From assembly GCA_947469885.1 (NCBI GenBank), contig CANIQT010000004.1, positions 124,001 through 188,000 of the forward strand: DNA of 64,000 nt, written 5' to 3'. This document shows, in pieces, positions 2,351 to 61,840 of this stretch. The first letter of the stretch is position 1. Each line of letters starts with the position of its first letter. The notes beneath the pieces are model-generated. The model ran no database searches and was not told where the DNA came from. It saw only the letters and a program-made list of their open reading frames with translations. Origin of the DNA: Bacteroidota bacterium (GTDB taxonomy: Bacteria; Bacteroidota; Bacteroidia; 2-12-FULL-35-15). Both the position numbers and the translations under genes were made by a program.

Positions 2351-4108
2351 TTGAAAAATAAAGTCATATATTTTTTATTTCATTCAGCTATACTTGTTGT
2401 ACTTTCTGTTGTTCTCCTTTCCTCCTGTAAAACATTAGCTAAAGGAACAGCATCTTCAAAAGGTTCAACAGCAGTAAAAGGGGATAAAGAAAAAATTGCT
2501 TTCGAAGTAAAATTTTTTGATGCCAACCGAGAGAAACTGCTAGGTAATTATGATAACGCCATTGTATTGTTTGCGCAAGCTTTGCAAATGGACCCCAACA
2601 GTGCTGCTTCCAGTTATGAATTGGCAGGCATTTATGCAATTAAAAAGGACAAAACCAAAGCACTTGAATATAGTAAAAAGGCTGCAACACTCGACCCATC
2701 CAATGTTTGGTATCAATTGCTGTATGCCGACATTTTGAAACAAAACAAACAACCTTTTGAAGTAGCCGAAGTTTACAAAAGGTTGGTTAAAGACAATCCA
2801 GACAAAATTGATTTTTATTATGAGTTAGCTAATGCCTATTTGTATTCAAATAAAATAAATGATGCTTTGAAAGTGTACGATAAAATGGAGAGTATTTTTG
2901 GTGTAACCGAAGAAGCGTCAATGCAGAAACTAACTATATATAAATCAACCAAGGACTTTGATAAATCAATTGCCGAAATTCAAAAATTGATTAAACAGTT
3001 TCCGAAAGAACCCAAATATTTAGGTATGCTTGGAGAGTTATATCAATCCAATGGGATGAACGATAAAGCACTTCAGTCATATAATGATTTATTAAAAATA
3101 GATGCTACCAATGCATATGTGCATTTATCATTAGCTGATTTTTATCGAAGTCAGAAACAAAATGACAATGCATTTGATGAAATAAAAATAGCTTTCCGAA
3201 GTAAGGATTTGGATATTGATACAAAAATTAAAATCCTTTTGTCGTACTATGACATTACAGAAAAGTATTCTGAATTGAAGAATGACGCAAGCGAATTGTG
3301 TAAAATACTGGTTGATGTTCATCCTGACGAAGCCAAAGCTTTTGCTATGTATGGCGATTTTTTGTTTAGAGACAAAAAAAATGAGGAAGCTAGACTGCAA
3401 TACCGAAAAGCCATAGCGTTGGATAGAGAGAGATATGCAATTTGGGATAATCTAATGCGGGCAGATTCGGAACTAAATGACCTGACTTCTTTGGAAAAAG
3501 ATAGTAAAGAAGCAATGGAATTATTTCCAAATCAACCCTTACCTTATTACTTTAATGGAGTGACTAATATACAATTAAAAAAATATAAAGAAGCCATTGA
3601 CGCTTTAACAGAAGGGAAAGAATTTGTAATAGGTGATAAACTTATTTTAGCAGACTTTTATGCAAGGATAGGCGATGCTCAAAACGAGTTAAAAAACAAG
3701 GATGCCTCTGATGCCGCTTTTGATAGAGCTCTTGAATTTGATCCAAACAATGCTACAGTTCTAAACAATTATGCATATTTTTTATCCTTGAGGAAAACAA
3801 ATTTAGAAAAGGCGGGTATGATGTCAAAAAAATCAAATGATTTGGAGCCTAATAATAAGTCGTATCAAGACACATTTGGCTGGATTTTATTTCAGGAGAA
3901 TAAGTACGATGACGCCAAGGTTTGGATAGGTAAAGCACTTGATAATGGTGGAAAAGAAGATGGTACGGTGCTTGAGCACTTTGGAGATATATTATATAAA
4001 TTGGGCGAAACAGACAATGCATTGAAATATTGGATGGATGCCAAAAAAGCGGGTGGTGCATCCGATTTGATAGATAAAAAAATTACTGATAAAAAATTCT
4101 ATGAATAG
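2351..4108 (+). CDS. TPR-repeat lipoprotein
   Basis: The 585-residue protein starts at a TTG codon, the only start that keeps the full signal peptide (KNKVIYFLFHSAILVVLSVVLLSSC). The lipobox LSSC makes it a lipoprotein. The rest is a long run of tetratricopeptide repeats, for example residues about 60-125 (NAIVLFAQALQMDPNS, then ALEYSKKAATLDPSN), continuing to the C terminus, so it is probably a periplasmic or outer-membrane-anchored scaffold. It lies 12 bases after the nucleotidyltransferase and overlaps the DUF4292 gene by eight bases (ATGAATAG). Its partner is not evident from sequence. Association with DUF4292 and an EnvC-like protein points to envelope assembly, which is inference. Confidence 0.85.
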   Translation: MKNKVIYFLFHSAILVVLSVVLLSSCKTLAKGTASSKGSTAVKGDKEKIAFEVKFFDANREKLLGNYDNAIVLFAQALQMDPNSAASSYELAGIYAIKKDKTKALEYSKKAATLDPSNVWYQLLYADILKQNKQPFEVAEVYKRLVKDNPDKIDFYYELANAYLYSNKINDALKVYDKMESIFGVTEEASMQKLTIYKSTKDFDKSIAEIQKLIKQFPKEPKYLGMLGELYQSNGMNDKALQSYNDLLKIDATNAYVHLSLADFYRSQKQNDNAFDEIKIAFRSKDLDIDTKIKILLSYYDITEKYSELKNDASELCKILVDVHPDEAKAFAMYGDFLFRDKKNEEARLQYRKAIALDRERYAIWDNLMRADSELNDLTSLEKDSKEAMELFPNQPLPYYFNGVTNIQLKKYKEAIDALTEGKEFVIGDKLILADFYARIGDAQNELKNKDASDAAFDRALEFDPNNATVLNNYAYFLSLRKTNLEKAGMMSKKSNDLEPNNKSYQDTFGWILFQENKYDDAKVWIGKALDNGGKEDGTVLEHFGDILYKLGETDNALKYWMDAKKAGGASDLIDKKITDKKFYE

Positions 4109-6525: not shown

Positions 6526-7953
6526 GTGAAAACATACAATTCTCTATCAGAAATAAAATCTGATTTATTAGCTAATACTATTTCCTGCGTTGAGCTTGTT
6601 AATCAATATTTAAAACGTATTGACGAAAAAAAAAAATTGAACGCTTTTTTGGAAGTGTTCGCTGCTTCCGCTTTGGAAAAAGCAAAACAAGTGGATGAAA
6701 AACTAAAAACCAATACTGCTGGAAAACTTGCAGGTATGGTGATTGCACTGAAAGATAATTTATGTTACAAAAGTCATAAAGTATCGGCTTCTTCCAAAAT
6801 ACTTGAAGGTTTCGAATCGCTTTATTCTGCAACTGTTGTTGAGCGTTTGTTGGCTGAAGATGCCATCATCATTGGTCGTTGCAACTGTGATGAGTTTGCA
6901 ATGGGTAGTTCAAACGAAACTTCTTTTTATGGCAATGTTTTAAATCCTTTAGACCCTACCCGTGTACCGGGGGGTTCTTCGGGAGGCGCTGCTGTGGCTG
7001 TAGCTGCTGATTTATGCCTTGCTTCATTGGGAACTGATACTGGAGGAAGCATTCGTCAACCGGCTTCGTTTTGCGGAGTGGTTGGGTTAAAGCCCACTTA
7101 TGGTAGGGTTTCGCGCTATGGTGCCATTGCTTATGCTTCATCTTTCGACCAGATTGGACCGCTTACTAAAAGTATTGAAGATGCTGCTTTGATAATGGAA
7201 GTGATGGCTGGAAGTGACGATTACGACAGTACGGTTTCTTCCAAACCTGTTCCTGAATATTCGAAACAATTAAATAATAGACCAACAAAACTTCGAATTG
7301 CTTATATAAAAGACTGTTTGGAGGCAAATGGTTTGAATCCTGAAATTAAGACTTATATATATAGTTTAATTGAAAAACTAAAAGCTGCTGGACATACTGT
7401 TGAACCTGTTGATTTTCCATATCTTGATTATTTGGTTCCTACTTATTATGTGTTAACCACTGCCGAAGCATCGTCCAACCTTGCTCGATATGATGGTATT
7501 GGCTTTGGATACAGAAGTCCGAACGCTACTGATTTGGAAAGCACGTATAAAAAATCGCGAACTGAAGGTTTTGGTACAGAAGTAAAACGAAGAATAATGT
7601 TGGGTACATTTGTGTTGAGTGCGGGTTATTACGATGCGTATTACTCCAAAGGACAAAGGGTTCGGAGGCTTTTGCAAAACAAAACAAACAAAATTTTAAA
7701 TAATTACGATTTTGTTATTTTACCTACCACCCCCGGAACTGCTTTTAAATTTGGCGAACACAATGCCGACCCTATAGCCATGTACCTCGAAGATATATTT
7801 ACTGTACAGGCTAATATCACTGGCATTCCTGCCATTTCGTTGCCTATGGGAACTCATTCAAATGGATTGCCTTTTGGAATTCAGGTGGCTGGAAAACATT
7901 TTTCGGAATCCGAATTACTTTCCTTCTCTGAGTATTTGATGAAGCTGAAGTAG
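6526..7953 (+). CDS. gatA: Glutamyl-tRNA(Gln) amidotransferase subunit A / amidase
   Basis: The 475-residue amidase-signature enzyme starts at a GTG. The catalytic Ser-cisSer-Lys triad is visible as Lys76 (ALKDNLC), Ser151 in PGGSSGGAA and Ser175 in GTDTGGSIRQPASFCGVVGLKP. The overall match, including RVSRYGAIAYASSFDQIGP, is to GatA, which releases ammonia from glutamine for transamidation of misacylated Glu-tRNA(Gln). Length is normal. gatB and gatC are not adjacent, which is common in Bacteroidota. A stand-alone amidase is the less likely alternative. Confidence 0.92.
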   Translation: MKTYNSLSEIKSDLLANTISCVELVNQYLKRIDEKKKLNAFLEVFAASALEKAKQVDEKLKTNTAGKLAGMVIALKDNLCYKSHKVSASSKILEGFESLYSATVVERLLAEDAIIIGRCNCDEFAMGSSNETSFYGNVLNPLDPTRVPGGSSGGAAVAVAADLCLASLGTDTGGSIRQPASFCGVVGLKPTYGRVSRYGAIAYASSFDQIGPLTKSIEDAALIMEVMAGSDDYDSTVSSKPVPEYSKQLNNRPTKLRIAYIKDCLEANGLNPEIKTYIYSLIEKLKAAGHTVEPVDFPYLDYLVPTYYVLTTAEASSNLARYDGIGFGYRSPNATDLESTYKKSRTEGFGTEVKRRIMLGTFVLSAGYYDAYYSKGQRVRRLLQNKTNKILNNYDFVILPTTPGTAFKFGEHNADPIAMYLEDIFTVQANITGIPAISLPMGTHSNGLPFGIQVAGKHFSESELLSFSEYLMKLK

Positions 7954-8897: not shown

Positions 8898-10550
8898 ATG
8901 ACTCTATTAATAATAGTAATAGCATTAGCACTGATATTCGATTTCATAAATGGATTTCATGATGCTGCAAACTCAATCGCTACAATTGTTTCAACCAAAG
9001 TGTTAACTCCTTTTCAGGCGGTGCTGTGGGCGGCATTTTTTAATTGTGTTGCGTTTTTAATTTTCAAAGACCATGCAGTTGCCAACACCATCGGCAAAAC
9101 AGTTTATTCCGATTTTATTTCTTTACCCGTAATTTGTAGTGGTTTAATTGCTGCTATCTGCTGGAACCTCCTCACCTGGTGGTACGGTATTCCTTCTTCC
9201 TCTTCGCATACGCTTATTGGAGGATTCGCTGGTTCTGCTATTGCCTATGCATTTCTGAGCAAAGGAATGATGCCTATCAGCGAAATTATTGATAGTAGTA
9301 AAATTGGAAAAACAATATTATTTATTTTTTGTGCTCCGCTTATTGGTATGATGATTTCTATATTTTTTACTCTTATTTTTATTCAGAACAGAACATGGAT
9401 AAAGGTAGGAATACTGGGAGGTTCGGCTTGTCTCATTTATTTTTTGTTTATCGGTTTTCAAGAAGATAAGTTGGCTGAAAACGTTAATAAATTTTTTAAA
9501 GTAGATAAATACACCTACGAAATAAATATAAAACACGATTCCACAAAAGCACATAAGCTAGAAAAAGCAATGCTGAGTGCCGCTACCTGTCAGCCTTTTC
9601 TTTCCAAATACGAATACCACGGTTCGGAGTATGTGGCAAACGAAATTGTGAACAATGTGGATATGAAAGAAATTACCATCAGCCGATTGGGCGACAAACT
9701 AAATACTTATTTTAAAATAGACCAGCTGAAAAACAAAGCCAAAGTGGACCCGGCATTTAAAGAAGAATATGAGGAAACAAAAAAAATAGTTGACAGTTTG
9801 AAACCCATCACCAAAAAGTATTTTGATTTAGGACATGACGGAATGGTGGCTACCATGACTACCTTGTATCCTATTAGCCCTGATAAATTGAAAGACTTCA
9901 GCAAAGCAATGGACATTAATATAAAAGCTGACCTTACCAAAGAATTGAGCAAGGCTGATAATAAAATAGTACGCTGGGGCTTAGTAGCCATGTTGTTTGT
10001 TTTTGCATTCATGTTTATTTACAACGAAAAAATAAAAACCCCGAGTGCCAAACGAACTTCCAACTCTTTCAAACGCGCACAATTACTGTCTTCTGCCGCT
10101 TTCAGTATTGGGCATGGAGGCAACGATGCACAAAAAGTAATGGGAATTATTGCAGCAGCATTGGTTGCCAACGGAAGTATTGTTGATATTAAATCAATGC
10201 CCGACTGGATTCCATTGTCCTGTTATTTAGCCATCGGATTAGGCACCTTAAGCGGTGGGTGGAAAATTGTAAAAACCATGGGAACCAAGATTACAAAGGT
10301 AACTCCGCTCGAAGGTGTATGTGCCGAAACAGCAGGTGCCACCACCTTGTTTTTAACAGAGCAAATGGGAATTCCTGTTTCCACTACTCATACCATTACC
10401 GGAGCCATTATTGGAGTGGGTGCCACCAAAGGACTTAGCGCAGTTCGTTGGGGAGTAACCGTTAGTTTATTATGGGCATGGATACTTACCATTCCTATCA
10501 GTGCTATACTAGGTGGATTATTTTATTGGATATTTAGCTTGTTTTTGTAA
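8898..10550 (+). CDS. Inorganic phosphate transporter, PiT family
   Basis: The 550-residue membrane protein carries both PiT signature repeats: GFHDAANSIATIVSTKVLTP near residue 20 and GHGGNDAQKVMGIIAAAL near residue 412. They flank paired membrane-spanning halves with SSSHTLIGG and STTHTITGAIIGVG. PiT proteins bring in phosphate with a cation gradient. About 165 residues between the halves (roughly 195-360) are soluble and charged, a loop larger than in the simplest bacterial PiT proteins. It follows DUF47 by 87 bases filled with an inverted repeat, so the two likely form one transcription unit. Confidence 0.95.
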   Translation: MTLLIIVIALALIFDFINGFHDAANSIATIVSTKVLTPFQAVLWAAFFNCVAFLIFKDHAVANTIGKTVYSDFISLPVICSGLIAAICWNLLTWWYGIPSSSSHTLIGGFAGSAIAYAFLSKGMMPISEIIDSSKIGKTILFIFCAPLIGMMISIFFTLIFIQNRTWIKVGILGGSACLIYFLFIGFQEDKLAENVNKFFKVDKYTYEINIKHDSTKAHKLEKAMLSAATCQPFLSKYEYHGSEYVANEIVNNVDMKEITISRLGDKLNTYFKIDQLKNKAKVDPAFKEEYEETKKIVDSLKPITKKYFDLGHDGMVATMTTLYPISPDKLKDFSKAMDINIKADLTKELSKADNKIVRWGLVAMLFVFAFMFIYNEKIKTPSAKRTSNSFKRAQLLSSAAFSIGHGGNDAQKVMGIIAAALVANGSIVDIKSMPDWIPLSCYLAIGLGTLSGGWKIVKTMGTKITKVTPLEGVCAETAGATTLFLTEQMGIPVSTTHTITGAIIGVGATKGLSAVRWGVTVSLLWAWILTIPISAILGGLFYWIFSLFL

Positions 10551-10585
10551 CTCGCAGCTTGCTCTAAATAGTTCAAATTTTATTT

Positions 10586-11203
10586 TTATTGAACATACAT
10601 GGAGATAGTATGGCTCCAAACAAGATTATTACTTGCGCCCACTCCAGCACCTCTAACAAACACTTTCTTTCCACTTTCTAAACCCTCAATTAATACTTTG
10701 GGATTAGTGGAAACTATTGTTTTCCATGTTTCAGGGTCGCTGTTTTCGTCCTGAGTATATCTGTAAACATATGTTCCTGCTTTGTATCCATACGATTTCA
10801 TACTTGCAAAAATTTCGTGCGAATTCAAACCTGGCTCAATGGTAAATTTTTCAGGTTTTGGTAAATCGCCCACCGGCTCTGCTTTTTTACGAATGTCGTA
10901 ACCACTTCTTAATGCTTTTGCTTCATCGTTACCGCAATTAATCTGAACGTATATCCCTAATTTGTTAAGTACATCTTCCAGTGCTTTGCGAGCCGATTTT
11001 TTAGCAGCCGTTTTTACTTTGCTACCTCTGTCTTTCAACGTATCTCTATAAGCATTGGTTTTGGTTGAAACCGCACTAAGAGGAGGCGTTGGAGAAGGAT
11101 ATTCTATTGAATCATCATTCATACACTTCCTTATTTTTCGGGCTTTCACCAGCAGTTCGTTATCCTTGTATCGTGTAAATCCCGTTTTTATTCTCACTTT
11201 CAT
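10586..11203 (-). CDS. Orphan protein with fibronectin-III-like C terminus
   Basis: I do not recognise this 205-residue protein. It has no signal peptide. The N-terminal half is basic and helical (GSKVKTAAKKSARKALEDVLNKLGIYVQI), and the C-terminal half (about 120-205) looks like a single beta-sandwich module ending GKKVFVRGAGVGASNNLVWSHTISMYVQ, similar in style to fibronectin type III-like ends. It stands alone, convergent with the PiT gene and followed by no clear terminator. The 21-bp repeat array at 11388 lies 185 bases upstream of its start. A second orphan gene of unknown function (35407-36360) has the same relation to another array. Confidence 0.65.
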   Translation of the reverse strand: MKVRIKTGFTRYKDNELLVKARKIRKCMNDDSIEYPSPTPPLSAVSTKTNAYRDTLKDRGSKVKTAAKKSARKALEDVLNKLGIYVQINCGNDEAKALRSGYDIRKKAEPVGDLPKPEKFTIEPGLNSHEIFASMKSYGYKAGTYVYRYTQDENSDPETWKTIVSTNPKVLIEGLESGKKVFVRGAGVGASNNLVWSHTISMYVQ

Positions 11204-41837: not shown

Positions 41838-42212
41838 TTATCTCCTTACTTTATGACCTTTGTGGTTAAAATAAGGGTCGTGAGACGAATGTTTGACATG
41901 TGCATGACGCTTAGCTCTTTCTTCATCAGCTGCAATTTTGCGTTTTTTAGCCAAACTGGTGCTAAACCAAGCAATGGCAATAACCAAAGCAAACCCAACT
42001 GCCATATAGATGTAGGACCTGATTTCTTCAGGTGTCATTTTCGATTGCTCTTCTTTAATAGCATTCGCATTTTTGTTCACGTTTCCAAGACTCGGTCCGT
42101 CCTGAGCCATTGCATTGTAGGCAAATAGCATCATTGACGAAAAAAGTAAAGCACAAGTCCTTAATACTCTGTTCCGTCCATTTTCAAATTTGGTTCTGGC
42201 TGAAGTTTTCAT
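41838..42212 (-). CDS. Small membrane protein with signal peptide
   Basis: From the ATG at 42212 the protein has 124 residues: a signal peptide (VLRTCALLFSSMMLFAYNAMAQ), a polar linker, one membrane helix (YIYMAVGFALVIAIAWFSTSLA) and a basic His-rich cytoplasmic tail (RHAHVKHSSHDPYFNHKGHKVRR). The frame is open to 42290, but the extra residues add a second weak hydrophobic stretch in front of a good signal peptide, so I use the internal start. I do not recognise the family. The His-rich tail could bind metal, which is a guess. It is divergent from rimP. Confidence 0.65.
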   Translation of the reverse strand: MKTSARTKFENGRNRVLRTCALLFSSMMLFAYNAMAQDGPSLGNVNKNANAIKEEQSKMTPEEIRSYIYMAVGFALVIAIAWFSTSLAKKRKIAADEERAKRHAHVKHSSHDPYFNHKGHKVRR

Positions 42213-42372
42213 ATTATTCAATTTATTATATTTCATATTTCTAGAGATGGTTTTCAACAATATGGCGACAAAGGTAGAAAAAAAAGTCATTAACCAACCA
42301 CTCTCACCTCTATAGACGCAAATTACTTATAAAAGGTTGCATGTTGATAAAAATATATTTTGGGCAGATAAA

Positions 42373-53778: not shown

Positions 53779-54774
53779 TTACCGTATCAAACTAATTCTA
53801 CCTTTTTTCTCGTACGTTTTACCATCTTTGCCTTCGGCAGACATGAAGTAATAATAAAGTCCGGCTTTGGCTTCTTTACCGTTTTTATCTTTCCCATCCC
53901 AATAAGCACCCACTTTATTACATTCAAAAATGGTTTTACCTTTTTCATCGGCTATCTGTCCGGTCATTTTCACAATATTACTGCCTTTAAAATAAAACAC
54001 ATCGTTCAAACTATCTCCGTTAGGGGTTAGTTCTCTTGGAACTTCGTACAAAGACGAATTGCCAGTTACCACAATTTTTGCGCTATCGGTTGCAGTTTTA
54101 CCTTCGGTATCGGTAGAGGTTAGTGTTACCCAATACACCCCAGGGTTTTCGAAAACATGTATTGGGTTAGCTGTTTTGTCATCTTTTTTACCATCGCTGT
54201 ATTTCCATCTGTACGTATTTCCTTTTCCGCTATTGGATAAGTTCACAATTAACGGAACAGTTCCACCGGTAGGGCTTGCAAAAATTAACGCAATAGGGTC
54301 GGCCGAAAATGTTTTGATAACCGATTGAATTTGTTTTTTGTCTTTAATAAATGGTTGAATAGCAAGTTTAGTTTCCTGCATTTTTTGCTCCTCTGTTTCG
54401 GCAGTTGCCACAGGTTTTGCAATTTCAGTTTTTACTTCAGCAACTGGGGCTTCAGTTTTCACCATTTCCTGTTTGTTTTCAGTCTTTGGTTGCTCAACCG
54501 TTTTTTCGGTTTGAGCTACAGCAGGTTTGTCTGTGTTTTTTACCGCATTACCTGTCCAGTGCATCACCCCAACAGTTCCAATCACTGTGGCAACAGACGA
54601 AACAACGGCAACAATGGTATTGGTTCCAATTTTATTGATAATAGCTTTGCCCAATAATCCAAGCCCAATGCCTTTCATCCCGGTTTTAATATTTTCCCAA
54701 ACACTCGAATCCACTTCCGCTTCGTAGTTCTCAAACGAGTCTTTGAACAAATCTTCAATACTTTTCTTTTCCAT
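53779..54774 (-). CDS. Anti-sigma-like membrane protein with PKD and T9SS type-B-like domain
   Basis: The 331-residue protein has a cytosolic head (KSIEDLFKDSFENYEAEVDSSVWENI, 4-29), one membrane helix (about 51-73), a Lys/Glu/Thr-rich spacer, a PKD domain (about 160-245, HVFENPGVYWVTLTSTD) and a gliding-motility-associated C-terminal domain (about 246-331: ELTPNGDSLNDVFYFKG, then YWDGKDKNGKEAKAGLYYYF and GRISLIR). It starts 12 bases after the ECF sigma gene, the usual place for an anti-sigma factor, and its head resembles such regulators. The last domain normally marks T9SS type B cargo but here is on a membrane-anchored protein. Confidence 0.8.
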   Translation of the reverse strand: MEKKSIEDLFKDSFENYEAEVDSSVWENIKTGMKGIGLGLLGKAIINKIGTNTIVAVVSSVATVIGTVGVMHWTGNAVKNTDKPAVAQTEKTVEQPKTENKQEMVKTEAPVAEVKTEIAKPVATAETEEQKMQETKLAIQPFIKDKKQIQSVIKTFSADPIALIFASPTGGTVPLIVNLSNSGKGNTYRWKYSDGKKDDKTANPIHVFENPGVYWVTLTSTDTEGKTATDSAKIVVTGNSSLYEVPRELTPNGDSLNDVFYFKGSNIVKMTGQIADEKGKTIFECNKVGAYWDGKDKNGKEAKAGLYYYFMSAEGKDGKTYEKKGRISLIR

Positions 54775-54786
54775 AAATCCTTTATT

Positions 54787-55308
54787 TTATAACGTAATTA
54801 CCTTTTGTAAATATGCTTTTGCCCTCGAATACTGCGATTTGGATGTACCTTCGGTGATACCTAACATATCTCCTATTTCCTTGTGCGAATACCCTTCAAT
54901 GGCATGTAAATTAAAAACTGTTTTAAATCCTGTTGGTAACGAGTGTATTATTTTCAATAATTCCTTAGCGCCTAAACTTTCTCCAAGGTGAGTGTAATCT
55001 TCAAGTGTCAATTCAATGCTTCCTATTTCAACGCTTCCTTCCATTTTTTTTGATTTTCTTATACTTGAAAGAGCAGTGTTCACTACTATTTTCCGTATCC
55101 ACCCTTCTAGAGAACCAGAAGCTTTAAACGAATCGATTTTTTCAAAAACATTGATAAATCCATTTTGCATAACGTCCTCTGCTTCTTCCTGTGAGTCACA
55201 ATAACGCTGGCACACGCCCATCATTTTTTTCGAAAATTTATCGTATAATGCTTTCTGAGCTAATGCTTTTTTTTTAACGCAACCTTCTATTATTTCGTCA
55301 TCGGTCAT
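54787..55308 (-). CDS. ECF-type sigma-70 family factor
   Basis: The 173-residue protein has region 2 (about 15-80: ALYDKFSKKMMGVCQRYCDSQEEAEDVMQNGFINVFEKI, with the -10 recognition helix) and region 4 (about 115-170: LPTGFKTVFNLHAIEGYSHKEIGDMLGITEGTSKSQYSRAKAYLQK). It directs RNA polymerase to a specific regulon. The next gene is very probably its membrane regulator. The sequence gives no clue to its target promoters. Confidence 0.93.
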   Translation of the reverse strand: MTDDEIIEGCVKKKALAQKALYDKFSKKMMGVCQRYCDSQEEAEDVMQNGFINVFEKIDSFKASGSLEGWIRKIVVNTALSSIRKSKKMEGSVEIGSIELTLEDYTHLGESLGAKELLKIIHSLPTGFKTVFNLHAIEGYSHKEIGDMLGITEGTSKSQYSRAKAYLQKVITL

Positions 55309-55411
55309 TTGCTATTCACTTAATAAGACGCAAAGTTGCGCCAAAAGGTTGCACCAAGGTACAAATATTATTTATTTATTAACAATATTTTCTTATTCCA
55401 TAAAACAATAG

Positions 55412-57704: not shown

Positions 57705-58463
57705 CTACAAAAAATTCAATCGTTTCGAAATGTCGTCTTTATACGACCCACCAATAGGGATTGATTTTTTGTCTTTCTCTAGAATTAGATTTGGAGTTTC
57801 AATGGCTACAATTTTATCGATGCGCACAATGAACGAACGATGAACGCGAATAAAATCTTGAGCAGATAATTTTTTTTCTATTTCTTTCATGGTTGAATGA
57901 ATGGTGAATTTTGCATTCTCGGTATTAACAACAACATAATCTTTTAATGCTTCCACAAAATAAATATCCTCGCTTTTTACTTTTACCTGGCGAGAATTTG
58001 ATTTAACAAATATCATGTCTTTGTCTTTCGATTCTTTGTTTTCTACAATAGAATATAAAAAGTCTCTTTCTTTTTTTAAATCAGTTTCCTTTTCATGTTT
58101 GTAAATCGCCATTTCGATTGACGTGTGCAAATCAATCTCTTTGAATGGTTTAATAATGTAGCCATAAGGCTCCGAAACTTTTGCTTTGCTCAACGTGCTT
58201 TCATCGGCATAAGCAGTTAGGTAAATAACAGGGATATTATATTTCTCCCTGATGTGCGATGCAGCTTCAATTCCTGTCATTTCGCCCTTCAGCATTATGT
58301 CCATTAATACCAAACTAGGTTTTAACTCTTCAACAATGCGTATGGCATCTTCACCATTCGAACAAATTTCGACTACAGTGTATCCTAGTTTTTTTAAACT
58401 GTGTTGAATGTCCTTAGCAACTATGCTTTCGTCTTCAACAATAAGAATGTTTGATTTTGACAT
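57705..58463 (-). CDS. LytTR-family response regulator
   Basis: The 252-residue protein has a receiver domain (about 4-122) with acidic residues Glu11/Asp12, phospho-acceptor Asp56 in SLVLMDIMLKG and a Lys in IIKPF. A short linker leads to a LytTR DNA-binding domain (about 155-250: IFVKSNSRQVKVKSEDIYFVEALKDYVVV, then FIRVHRSFIVRIDKI). It starts two bases after the kinase gene, so it is the cognate regulator. LytTR regulators bind paired direct repeats about two helical turns apart. Confidence 0.92.
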   Translation of the reverse strand: MSKSNILIVEDESIVAKDIQHSLKKLGYTVVEICSNGEDAIRIVEELKPSLVLMDIMLKGEMTGIEAASHIREKYNIPVIYLTAYADESTLSKAKVSEPYGYIIKPFKEIDLHTSIEMAIYKHEKETDLKKERDFLYSIVENKESKDKDMIFVKSNSRQVKVKSEDIYFVEALKDYVVVNTENAKFTIHSTMKEIEKKLSAQDFIRVHRSFIVRIDKIVAIETPNLILEKDKKSIPIGGSYKDDISKRLNFL

Positions 58464-58465
58464 GT

Positions 58466-61400
58466 TTATATTCTGTTTTTAGATTGATTGTGTTTAAATA
58501 GTATAGTGTATTGTGTTCCTTTTTTGTTGTCTATCTGAATGTTTCCATTTAATTGGTCAATCAAAGTAATTACTAATTGAAGTCCGAGCGATTCGGTATT
58601 TCTGAAATCAATATGGTCTGGCAAACCTACCCCGTTGTCAGCAATTATTAATTTTAAATTTTGCTCTTCCAAGTGCATCTTAATGGTAACAATGTTTTCA
58701 GCCTCATTATCAACAAAAGCATACTTAATTGAATTCGAAACAATTTCGTTGATGACTAAACCCGATGGAATTGCAAGGTCTAAATTAAGAAAAATTGTTT
58801 GAATATCGAGATTCAATTTTATTTTTATGTAAGAATCAGAATACGTTTGAATTAAATTTTGAGAAAGATTTACCACATATTCCGAAAAATTGATACTCGA
58901 AAAATCTTTTGTTTGATACAAACTTTCATGAATATACGCCATTGACTTTATTCTGTTTTGGCTCTCTTTCAATATGTTTAAGGTGTTTTGGTCTTTAACG
59001 TAGGAAGATTGAAGATTTAAAATACTAGAAATAACTTGTAAATTATTTTTCACTCTGTGATGAACTTCTTTCAAAAGCACTTCTTTTTCCTGTAACGATT
59101 GTTGAATCCTTTCATTTGCTTTTATTTTTTCTGTAATGTCATGACCTATTCCTGAAATTTCTACCACTTTTTTATTTTCATTGTAAATAGGATTTAAAAA
59201 TATTTCGTACCAAACGGTATTTCCAGTTGTGTCCACAAATTTAGTTTCAAAATATTGAGGAATTCCAGATAATGTCATATCATATTTTTTTATCCAAAAA
59301 GCATTAAATTCATTTGTGGAAATCATTGCTCCTTCCATCATTGAAATTCCTACATAAATTTCAACTTTATATTGTTGGCGAATAAAATCTTTAAAATTTT
59401 GATTAAACGAAGTTAAACAGGAACTTCTGTCGGCCGTCCAAACTAGATGTGAACCCGATTCAAAAACAGCATTTAATTTGGCTGCCTGTGCTTGTTGTTC
59501 CTTTTCTGTTTTTCTTCGTTCCGAAATATCCTGAAACACAGAAATGAAATGGGAAGGATTACCGACTTTATCCTTTACAAGCGAAATGGTGAGATTGGTA
59601 TAAACTATTTTGCCACTTTTATGCACATATTTTTTTTCAAAAGTTGTTTTTTCAATAACTCCTCTCAAAAATTTATCCCACAAACCAATAGATACTTTCA
59701 TGTCTTCGGGAGCAGTGATATCAACAAATACTTTCTGATACAATTCTTCTTGCGAATAACCAAGTATGGCACAGAGTTGTTCGTTTACCTGCAAAAATTG
59801 CCCTTGAAGACTAACCTTTGCAATTCCAATATATGCCTGATTGTAAATAGCCCGATATCTTTCTTCGCTGTCTCTGAGTTCTTGCTCTGCTTTTTTTGAT
59901 TCTGAAATATCGCGCGACACACCCATGGCTCCAACTATTGTCCCGTCTTCACTTTTCAAAACGGAAGCAGAAAGAAAGGAAGTGAATTTTTCTCCATTCT
60001 TTTTTATATTCGAAACCTCTCCCACATAAATTCCATTTTCAAGTAATTCCTTTTGTGTTATATGTGTACTGTCGGTGGGGTTGGAATACAACATTCGTAC
60101 ATTCTGTCCAATCACTTCCTCTGGTTTATACCCAAAAGTATTTTGAGCTGCAGTATTAAATTCGGTAATGTTTCCATCCTTACCCGTTGCACAAATCATA
60201 TCCAGCGAACTTTCGATAAGCAGGCGAGTGTATTTCTGATTGCTCAACAAAATCCGCTCTGCATTCTGTCTTTCCTTAATTTCGTGTTGTAGATTTTTAT
60301 TTGTTTTTTCTGCTACTTGTGTTAGCAATTGTTGTTTCAACAATTGCTTTTGTGTGGAGACGTTGTGTAATACAATAAGAGTGGCGTGCTTGTCATTATA
60401 TTCCACCAGTGTAGGTTTCGACTCAATATCAACTGTTTTTCCTCTTAAGGTTTTTACTTTTATTTCGGCAAACGGAACTAGTTCACCACTATTAATTTTT
60501 TCAATTCTTTTTTTTACAAATTCTCGAAACTCGGGAAGTATGAAATTAAAAATAGGTTGAAATTGCACCTGTTCAAGTTTTGCTTCCAACATTTTTAAAG
60601 CTGATTTATTTGCAAATTCTATTTTGCCATCCAAGATAATAAAGATACCATCTGGAGAATTATCAATTAAACTTTTATAGTTTTCCCGACTATTATTTAG
60701 CTCTATTTCATATCGTTTTTTATCATTGATGTCGGCAATAAAACCCTCTAAAAACAATAATTTACCTTTTGTGTCAAATACTCCCTGACCCTTTTCCCAG
60801 ACCCATTTAAAGCTCCCATCAGCGGTTATAATTCTATATTCAAGTTCATATATGGATTTGTTTTTTAGTGCTTTTTTTAATTTTTTATTCCCTCTGTCGT
60901 CAGGATGAATAATATCATTAAAGGCCCTTTTTTTATTGTTTACAAAGTCGCTGGAGTTGTAGCCTGTTAAATTTAAAAAACCATCGCTCAAAAATATCAT
61001 GGTAAGGTTTTCGTCTAAGTTGCATCGATAAGCAATCCCAGGAAAGTTATTTGACAAAACCGAAAATTTTCGTTCGCTTTCGTGTATTTTTGTTTCCGAT
61101 TCTTTTTGTAGAGTTATATCGCGAATGGCTGTAACCCTAGCAGGTAATCCGTTATACACTATTTGATTTACAAGAATCTCCACCCAAAATGTTTTGTTGC
61201 CTTTTCGCAACATTTGTATCTCATAAGGCGAAGCATCTTTGTTTTTTATTTTTTCAATTACTGTTTTATGAAAATCGGGATGAACGAAATCGAAAATGGA
61301 TCTACCAATTATTTCTTTTTCGGAGTACTCAAATATTTTGCCCACCGCCTTGTTTACTTCTACCACCATACCATCCTGATGAATTGCTATGCCTTCAAAA

Positions 61401-61840
61401 GAAGAGTCGGAGAGCTTTTTGAATCTTTCTTCGCTTAATTTTAATGCGTTTTTTGTTTCTCTTTTTTCGGTTACATCAATTGCCTGAAGAATGGCAGCAA
61501 CTGTTTTTTTATTTTCAATATGAGGAGTTGCACTGGTTGAATAGTAAGCTAGCCCTTTGTTATTGCCCCAACCAATGATTTCAAATTTTTGTGGTTTGCA
61601 GGTTTTGAAAACCGCTTCAATTGCTTTTTTAATTTTCTGTTCCGAATCTTTTGAAAAAAAATTGTAAACAGAAGTGCCTATGATGGTTTCTTTTTTATTG
61701 CCGAGTAAAACTTCGTTACTCTCTGTAATTATTCCTTTTTCATCAATTATAAGAATAATATTATCCGAATATTTTAAAAACGAATCCCATTTAGATTCGA
61801 AGGAACGAGGAGATACGATTGTTTTTTTAGAAGAAGCCAT
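58466..61840 (-). CDS. Cytosolic histidine kinase with seven PAS domains
   Basis: The 1124-residue kinase has no membrane helix. I count seven PAS/PAC units, starting near residues 18, 142, 256, 385, 525, 655 and 780 (for example FKKLSDSSFEGIAIHQDGMVVEVNKAVGKIF and YKSLIDNSPDGIFIILDGKIEFANKSALKML). A HisKA_2 domain with the phospho-accepting histidine in LLKEVHHRVKNNLQVISSILNLQ (about 925-950) and a HATPase domain to the C terminus (NEIVSNSIKYAF, DNGVGLP) follow. Such kinases sense small ligands, redox or light; no cofactor can be assigned. The LytTR regulator gene follows by two bases. Confidence 0.9.
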   Translation of the reverse strand: MASSKKTIVSPRSFESKWDSFLKYSDNIILIIDEKGIITESNEVLLGNKKETIIGTSVYNFFSKDSEQKIKKAIEAVFKTCKPQKFEIIGWGNNKGLAYYSTSATPHIENKKTVAAILQAIDVTEKRETKNALKLSEERFKKLSDSSFEGIAIHQDGMVVEVNKAVGKIFEYSEKEIIGRSIFDFVHPDFHKTVIEKIKNKDASPYEIQMLRKGNKTFWVEILVNQIVYNGLPARVTAIRDITLQKESETKIHESERKFSVLSNNFPGIAYRCNLDENLTMIFLSDGFLNLTGYNSSDFVNNKKRAFNDIIHPDDRGNKKLKKALKNKSIYELEYRIITADGSFKWVWEKGQGVFDTKGKLLFLEGFIADINDKKRYEIELNNSRENYKSLIDNSPDGIFIILDGKIEFANKSALKMLEAKLEQVQFQPIFNFILPEFREFVKKRIEKINSGELVPFAEIKVKTLRGKTVDIESKPTLVEYNDKHATLIVLHNVSTQKQLLKQQLLTQVAEKTNKNLQHEIKERQNAERILLSNQKYTRLLIESSLDMICATGKDGNITEFNTAAQNTFGYKPEEVIGQNVRMLYSNPTDSTHITQKELLENGIYVGEVSNIKKNGEKFTSFLSASVLKSEDGTIVGAMGVSRDISESKKAEQELRDSEERYRAIYNQAYIGIAKVSLQGQFLQVNEQLCAILGYSQEELYQKVFVDITAPEDMKVSIGLWDKFLRGVIEKTTFEKKYVHKSGKIVYTNLTISLVKDKVGNPSHFISVFQDISERRKTEKEQQAQAAKLNAVFESGSHLVWTADRSSCLTSFNQNFKDFIRQQYKVEIYVGISMMEGAMISTNEFNAFWIKKYDMTLSGIPQYFETKFVDTTGNTVWYEIFLNPIYNENKKVVEISGIGHDITEKIKANERIQQSLQEKEVLLKEVHHRVKNNLQVISSILNLQSSYVKDQNTLNILKESQNRIKSMAYIHESLYQTKDFSSINFSEYVVNLSQNLIQTYSDSYIKIKLNLDIQTIFLNLDLAIPSGLVINEIVSNSIKYAFVDNEAENIVTIKMHLEEQNLKLIIADNGVGLPDHIDFRNTESLGLQLVITLIDQLNGNIQIDNKKGTQYTILFKHNQSKNRI

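Follow-up and report, generated by a model that had tools for sequence, protein, structure and literature searches.

An ECF sigma factor paired with a Dma-like membrane protein that ends in a T9SS type-B domain: a possible coupling of cargo expression to secretion in Bacteroidia

Why should a membrane protein encoded next to an ECF sigma factor end in a domain that is otherwise typical of T9SS cargo? The question arises from a gene pair in the window, by which we mean the whole 64,000-nucleotide stretch of DNA analysed here, from the genome of an uncultured Bacteroidota bacterium (G000). A first-pass annotation had placed the pair at exactly the coordinates that we recovered (Table 1), and had described the second protein as an anti-sigma-like cytosolic head followed by one membrane helix, a PKD domain and a T9SS type-B domain. 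It further suggested that this protein is probably not cargo and that its periplasmic end may let the T9SS, or the saturation of the T9SS, control the sigma factor.

Table 1. Positions of the sigma locus and of the second promoter site in the window
Feature	Position	Strand	Basis or remark
ECF-type promoter before the sigma gene, TGCAACC-N15-GCGTCT	55326-55353	-	Kept across the genus and in distant families
ECF sigma factor	54787-55308	-	173 aa; Pfam r2 and r4_2; orthologue beside every relative examined
Anti-sigma-like membrane protein	53779-54774	-	331 aa; Pfam, alignment of 30 orthologues, hydropathy
Predicted cytosolic sigma-binding head, residues 1-46	54637-54774	-	Head profile; two helices predicted to pack with the sigma factor, pLDDT ~90
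PKD domain, residues 172-236	54067-54261	-	Pfam; optional in relatives
CHU_C / T9SS type-B domain, residues 244-331	53782-54045	-	Pfam, column comparison with cargo, tree
Second promoter copy, TGCAACCTTTTATAAGTAATTTGCGTCT	42314-42341	-	Perfect match
Candidate regulon gene, small membrane protein	41838-42290	-	150 aa; behind TGCAACCTTTTATAAGTAATTTGCGTCT; related gene in G034 (L238) has the same promoter

The two genes are separated by 12 nt and their reading frames match. The sigma factor has Sigma70_r2 (54.3 bits) and r4_2 (48.7 bits) matches, both above the Pfam cut-offs. In the membrane protein, a hydrophilic N-terminal head of ~45 residues precedes the sole strongly hydrophobic segment (residues 53-71 by hydropathy), and a low-complexity tether with many P, K, E, T and A residues extends to about residue 160. 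A PKD_4 domain (45.9 bits, above cut-off) and a CHU_C domain (match to residues 244-327, 48.8 bits against a cut-off of 27) follow, which bears out the architecture first described. TIGR04131 scores 33.4, slightly below its cut-off of 35. The head carries the motif IEDLFKxSFENFEAEVxPSVWxNI. Pfam gave no FecR match in the membrane protein, which rules out a FecR-type anti-sigma factor, and a PDB sequence search with the membrane protein matched only PKD domains of collagenases and similar proteins. Genes for a multi-PAS sensor kinase of 1124 aa and a response regulator of 252 aa lie nearby at 57705-61840(-), and relatives of these genes also occur near the pair in L061, L065 and L094.

The membrane protein was matched in all 36 genomes of the family, which consists of one genus, although a few match by the PKD/CHU_C part alone; a profile of the head matches 35 of the 36, one of them weakly. 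The sigma gene lies directly upstream in 30/30 full-length genus relatives that were fetched. Across the class Bacteroidia, the head-only profile found matches in 73 of 395 sampled genomes, belonging to 42 genera, and we inspected 55 of these distant head proteins (15 + 40). A sigma gene adjoins the gene in every one of the 55 loci. Chance adjacency is ruled out by this and by the genus relatives. The protein ends in CHU_C in 43 of the 55, from 12 families including that of the window; nearly all of the other 12 are barrel-like proteins of ~500 aa that end at or near an aromatic residue, and one is of neither type. The combination of sigma factor, head and CHU_C thus recurs elsewhere, whereas the PKD domain of the first-pass description was detected in just 21 of 43 CHU_C-type relatives. 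Because of this count, and judged from sequence, CHU_C is the constant outer part of these proteins and PKD is optional. The distance between transmembrane segment and CHU_C ranges from 127 to 272 residues in distant relatives, with low complexity outside PKD. SprA is present in the window's genome and in 385 of the 395 sampled genomes, and its co-occurrence with the head is uninformative for that reason.

Several distant loci show further arrangements. Five loci of one distant genus (f16) carry another ECF sigma gene behind that of the CHU_C-type anti-sigma protein, giving sigma, anti-sigma and sigma in tandem (L126, with the second sigma at 2722-3192(+), L127, L129, L130 and L138). In L077, a free-standing 136-aa ORF directly behind the anti-sigma gene (6983-7393(+)) ends in a second anti-sigma-like CHU_C domain; the same ORF was found in L043, which is from the same genome. 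One locus, L075, has the CHU_C-type and barrel-type versions together, the barrel-type pair (8963-11147(+), Dma layout) lying 2 kb downstream of the other. The head of this barrel version matches the head profile at E=2e-6, and its sigma factor is 40% identical to that of the window.

We used AlphaFold2 to model the pair as one chain, the natural read-through of both in-frame genes, with the stop codon read as Gly and four linker residues. The top model, the one confident model among five in each run, had a pLDDT of 80.9 and a pTM of 0.77 for the window's lineage and 81.3 and 0.76 for a pair of a different family, with the fusion of the chains favouring contact. In both lineages the head is modelled as two helices at pLDDT ~90, placed on the sigma factor. 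The solved structures that fit these models best are ECF sigma factors in anti-sigma complexes (SigW-RsiW, RpoE-NepR and CnrH-CnrY; rmsd ~4-8), and RNA-polymerase-bound sigma forms fit poorly (rmsd ~26). As in CnrH-CnrY and RpoE-NepR (PDB 4cxf, 5uxx), a small helical segment would hold an ECF-type sigma factor closed; these systems have other periplasmic parts, and no sequence relation between them and the window's head was detected. The head is predicted to bind and sequester the sigma factor, and the models together with the universal sigma adjacency agree with its earlier description as anti-sigma-like.

The layout is close to that of the Dma proteins, in which a sigma-binding head, a transmembrane helix, a disordered tether and a beta-barrel are joined in one protein whose gene adjoins an ECF21 sigma gene (PMC13088901). 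The window's type shares with Dma the ECF sigma gene pair, a short head (its sigma binding predicted here), one transmembrane helix, a long disordered tether, a C-terminal module of outer-membrane type and a restriction to Bacteroidota, and the head profile also matches barrel-type proteins. It differs from Dma in that a C-terminal CHU_C domain, with or without PKD, replaces the barrel, and in having its own promoter class and T9SS cargo in its candidate regulon. A PNAS paper of 2024 reportedly also treats the Dma/Das dual membrane-spanning anti-sigma family of Bacteroides. Since CHU_C replaces the barrel, the CHU_C-type protein is, by its sequence, not a Dma as defined, but it probably works like one. 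We found no description of an anti-sigma factor ending in a T9SS type-B domain in a literature search that covered mostly journals outside subscription. The CHU_C type is a genuine form of the Dma kind of anti-sigma factor, conserved widely and apparently undescribed.

The pattern TGCAACY-N15-GCRTCT is found upstream of the sigma gene throughout the genus, a few genomes differing slightly, and the distant families have an identical or close form there. A promoter at this position makes autoregulation probable. A looser form of the pattern precedes 32 of the 43 distant CHU_C-type sigma genes and 2 of the 12 genes of barrel-type or other pairs (p=0.0005). The exact pattern occurs 17 times in the window's genome and, when reversed, not once; two matches fall within the window, where 0.18 are expected.

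For a view of the candidate regulon, we sampled the sequence that follows the sites in six genus genomes and in one genome of another family. Gene calling behind the sites was mechanical, and searches and the neighbouring genes of the same regions served as background. At 51 of the 58 genus sites, a gene in the right orientation starts no more than 400 nt away. In the six genus genomes, 24 of the 47 first complete genes behind a site encode proteins that end in a T9SS CTD, as compared with 48 of 293 neighbours (p=8e-7, Fisher), and several more first genes, for long secreted proteins, are truncated where a contig ends. The genome of the other family shows the same trend (3 of 5 first genes, 2 of 51 neighbours, p=0.003). 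This enrichment is in line with the T9SS link proposed in the first-pass annotation; the cargo genes are assigned to this sigma factor via the shared promoter, which other ECF sigma factors may share.

A gene for a CHU_C cargo protein of 1000-1400 aa adjoins the pair in roughly half of the genus loci, although no such gene lies beside the pair in the window. Outside the genus the strict pattern often yields the autoregulatory site alone, so that a large cargo regulon is clear only in the genus. For this reason, the class-wide association between the head and the possession of at least one site is weak (36 of 58 head-bearing genomes against 135 of 322 others, p=0.004, from counts read by hand). 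We considered and dropped the idea that the regulon favours type-B cargo over type-A cargo: the ratio of 15:9 departs from 45 to at least 150 genome-wide (p=1e-4), but the comparison with neighbours gave p=0.16. The genome-wide figures reflect a very large T9SS cargo load in the window's genome, with at least 150 type-A tails and 45 CHU_C domains above cut-off. Candidate regulon members other than cargo include a YqeY-like gene behind the promoter in two genus genomes (L193:179-619, L233:144-) and a 114-118-aa membrane protein behind it in two genomes (L190, L236).

We compared, column by column, 49 CHU_C domains of anti-sigma proteins with 86 CHU_C domains of cargo. The anti-sigma domains retain P-N-G-D, W-x-G and G-x-Y, and also G-x-[IV]-x-L-x-R at their end; the conservation of several of these elements is stricter than in cargo. 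The cargo motif [FY][DN]RWG (R in 98% and W in 93% of cargo) has lost its RW in the anti-sigma set, in which the four commonest residues at the tryptophan position do not include W; DR[WYF]G was found in 5 of the 43 distant CHU_C-type relatives, and the window's protein has DEKG at residues 276-279. In a tree, 48 of the 49 anti-sigma domains form a separate clade (support 0.91) with no cargo inside. The pair, its architecture and conservation, the promoter, the cargo enrichment and this specialised clade can be taken as established at the level of sequence.

The lost RW and the retained positions suit a CHU_C that may still be recognised by the T9SS yet is no longer exported, and they would also suit one that has left the T9SS; the loss of RW could mean that the anti-sigma CHU_C has no T9SS contact any more. 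In the latter case, a former cargo domain would now serve as a static anchor in the outer membrane, or in the periplasm as a sensor of a ligand or of the envelope state, and T9SS activity would go unread. A study of Flavobacterium johnsoniae (PMC12618676) argues for this, since each of five conserved type-B motifs, one of which may include RW, was needed there for secretion of the SprB CTD, and so does the fact that other versions of the head end in a beta-barrel, for which no T9SS is needed. However, the other cargo positions are kept or even sharper in the anti-sigma domains and T9SS cargo genes are enriched in the candidate regulon, and we consider this main rival unlikely, though it deserves to be taken seriously.

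A second alternative accepts the sigma/anti-sigma pair but has the cargo promoters serve mainly another ECF sigma factor of overlapping specificity, which would weaken the link to the T9SS. The barrel-type sigma factor in the same genus (the L075 pair) has a similar -35 element (GCAACCTTTT) and a different -10 element, and overlapping ECF regulons have been proposed in Flavobacterium psychrophilum (PMC9723704). Against this, the exact motif recurs before the present sigma gene in genome after genome and its looser form tracks CHU_C-type and not barrel-type pairs, and we judge the alternative rather improbable. That the membrane protein is ordinary T9SS cargo, freed from its anchor, displayed on the surface and co-transcribed with the sigma gene by habit, is suggested by a CHU_C score above the Pfam cut-off and was rejected as very improbable, given a deep, uncleaved anchor (the hydrophobic segment starts at residue 45-65 in 43/43 distant relatives), a conserved N-terminus that is the head, the absence of RW and a sigma gene that is always adjacent; here too the first-pass reading, "probably not cargo", holds.

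The interpretation that we favour is that of a sigma/anti-sigma pair of Dma layout with a T9SS cargo domain in place of the barrel, which couples the expression of T9SS cargo to the state of the T9SS; we regard its chances as evenly balanced. The cytosolic head would keep the ECF sigma factor inactive, and the transmembrane helix and flexible tether would bring CHU_C across the periplasm to the outer membrane. There, CHU_C may dock in a cargo-like manner on the T9SS or on a shuttle of the PorP/SprF type, and the state of the T9SS would pass through the tether to the sigma factor, which, when released, would transcribe the operon that encodes it along with a set of genes for T9SS cargo. SprB and other type-B cargo work with PorP/SprF shuttles (PMC12618676, PMC9143113), although we saw no such shuttle linked to the pair. 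The window's type resembles SprB-type cargo in its CHU_C domain, often preceded by PKD, and differs in its cytosolic head, its lack of a cleavable signal peptide (by hydropathy), the lost RW and its separate clade.

Release when the T9SS is available is the favoured sign, because the candidate targets encode cargo rather than machinery. Docking on a free T9SS would pull on or alter the tether and release the sigma factor, although the opposite sign is possible. Surplus cargo would then outcompete the anti-sigma CHU_C and turn cargo synthesis off, so that cargo output would track export capacity. The logic would be similar in function to that of FlgM and sigma28, built of different parts. FlgM is an anti-sigma factor exported by the flagellar type III system; in both cases, as proposed here, the sigma factor for the late substrates of an export machine is held back by a protein that itself has substrate-like features. 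Unlike FlgM, the window's anti-sigma protein is membrane-anchored, belongs to another sigma class and machine, and is not expected to be exported. In the PorA-PorXY-SigP system of Porphyromonas gingivalis, a CTD protein that is surface cargo acts via a two-component system on T9SS components (PMC7712824). There, as proposed for the present pair, a T9SS CTD protein influences an ECF sigma factor linked to T9SS genes, but here the CTD belongs to the anti-sigma protein itself and the candidate targets are cargo.

How Bacteroidota regulate the supply of T9SS cargo is largely unexplained; PorXY-SigP of P. gingivalis acts on components of the machine. With somewhat less than even confidence, we propose that a widespread, undescribed class of anti-sigma factors in Bacteroidia senses the T9SS via a cargo-mimicking CHU_C domain and matches cargo transcription to export capacity, which would make it the first secretion-coupled sigma switch known for the T9SS. 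The Dma layout is modular, in that either a BAM-type barrel or a T9SS-type domain may form its outer end, these being substrates of two different export routes at the outer membrane. A conserved anti-sigma protein that ends in an export tag, together with a candidate cargo regulon, makes the control of cargo supply testable by simple gene removals.
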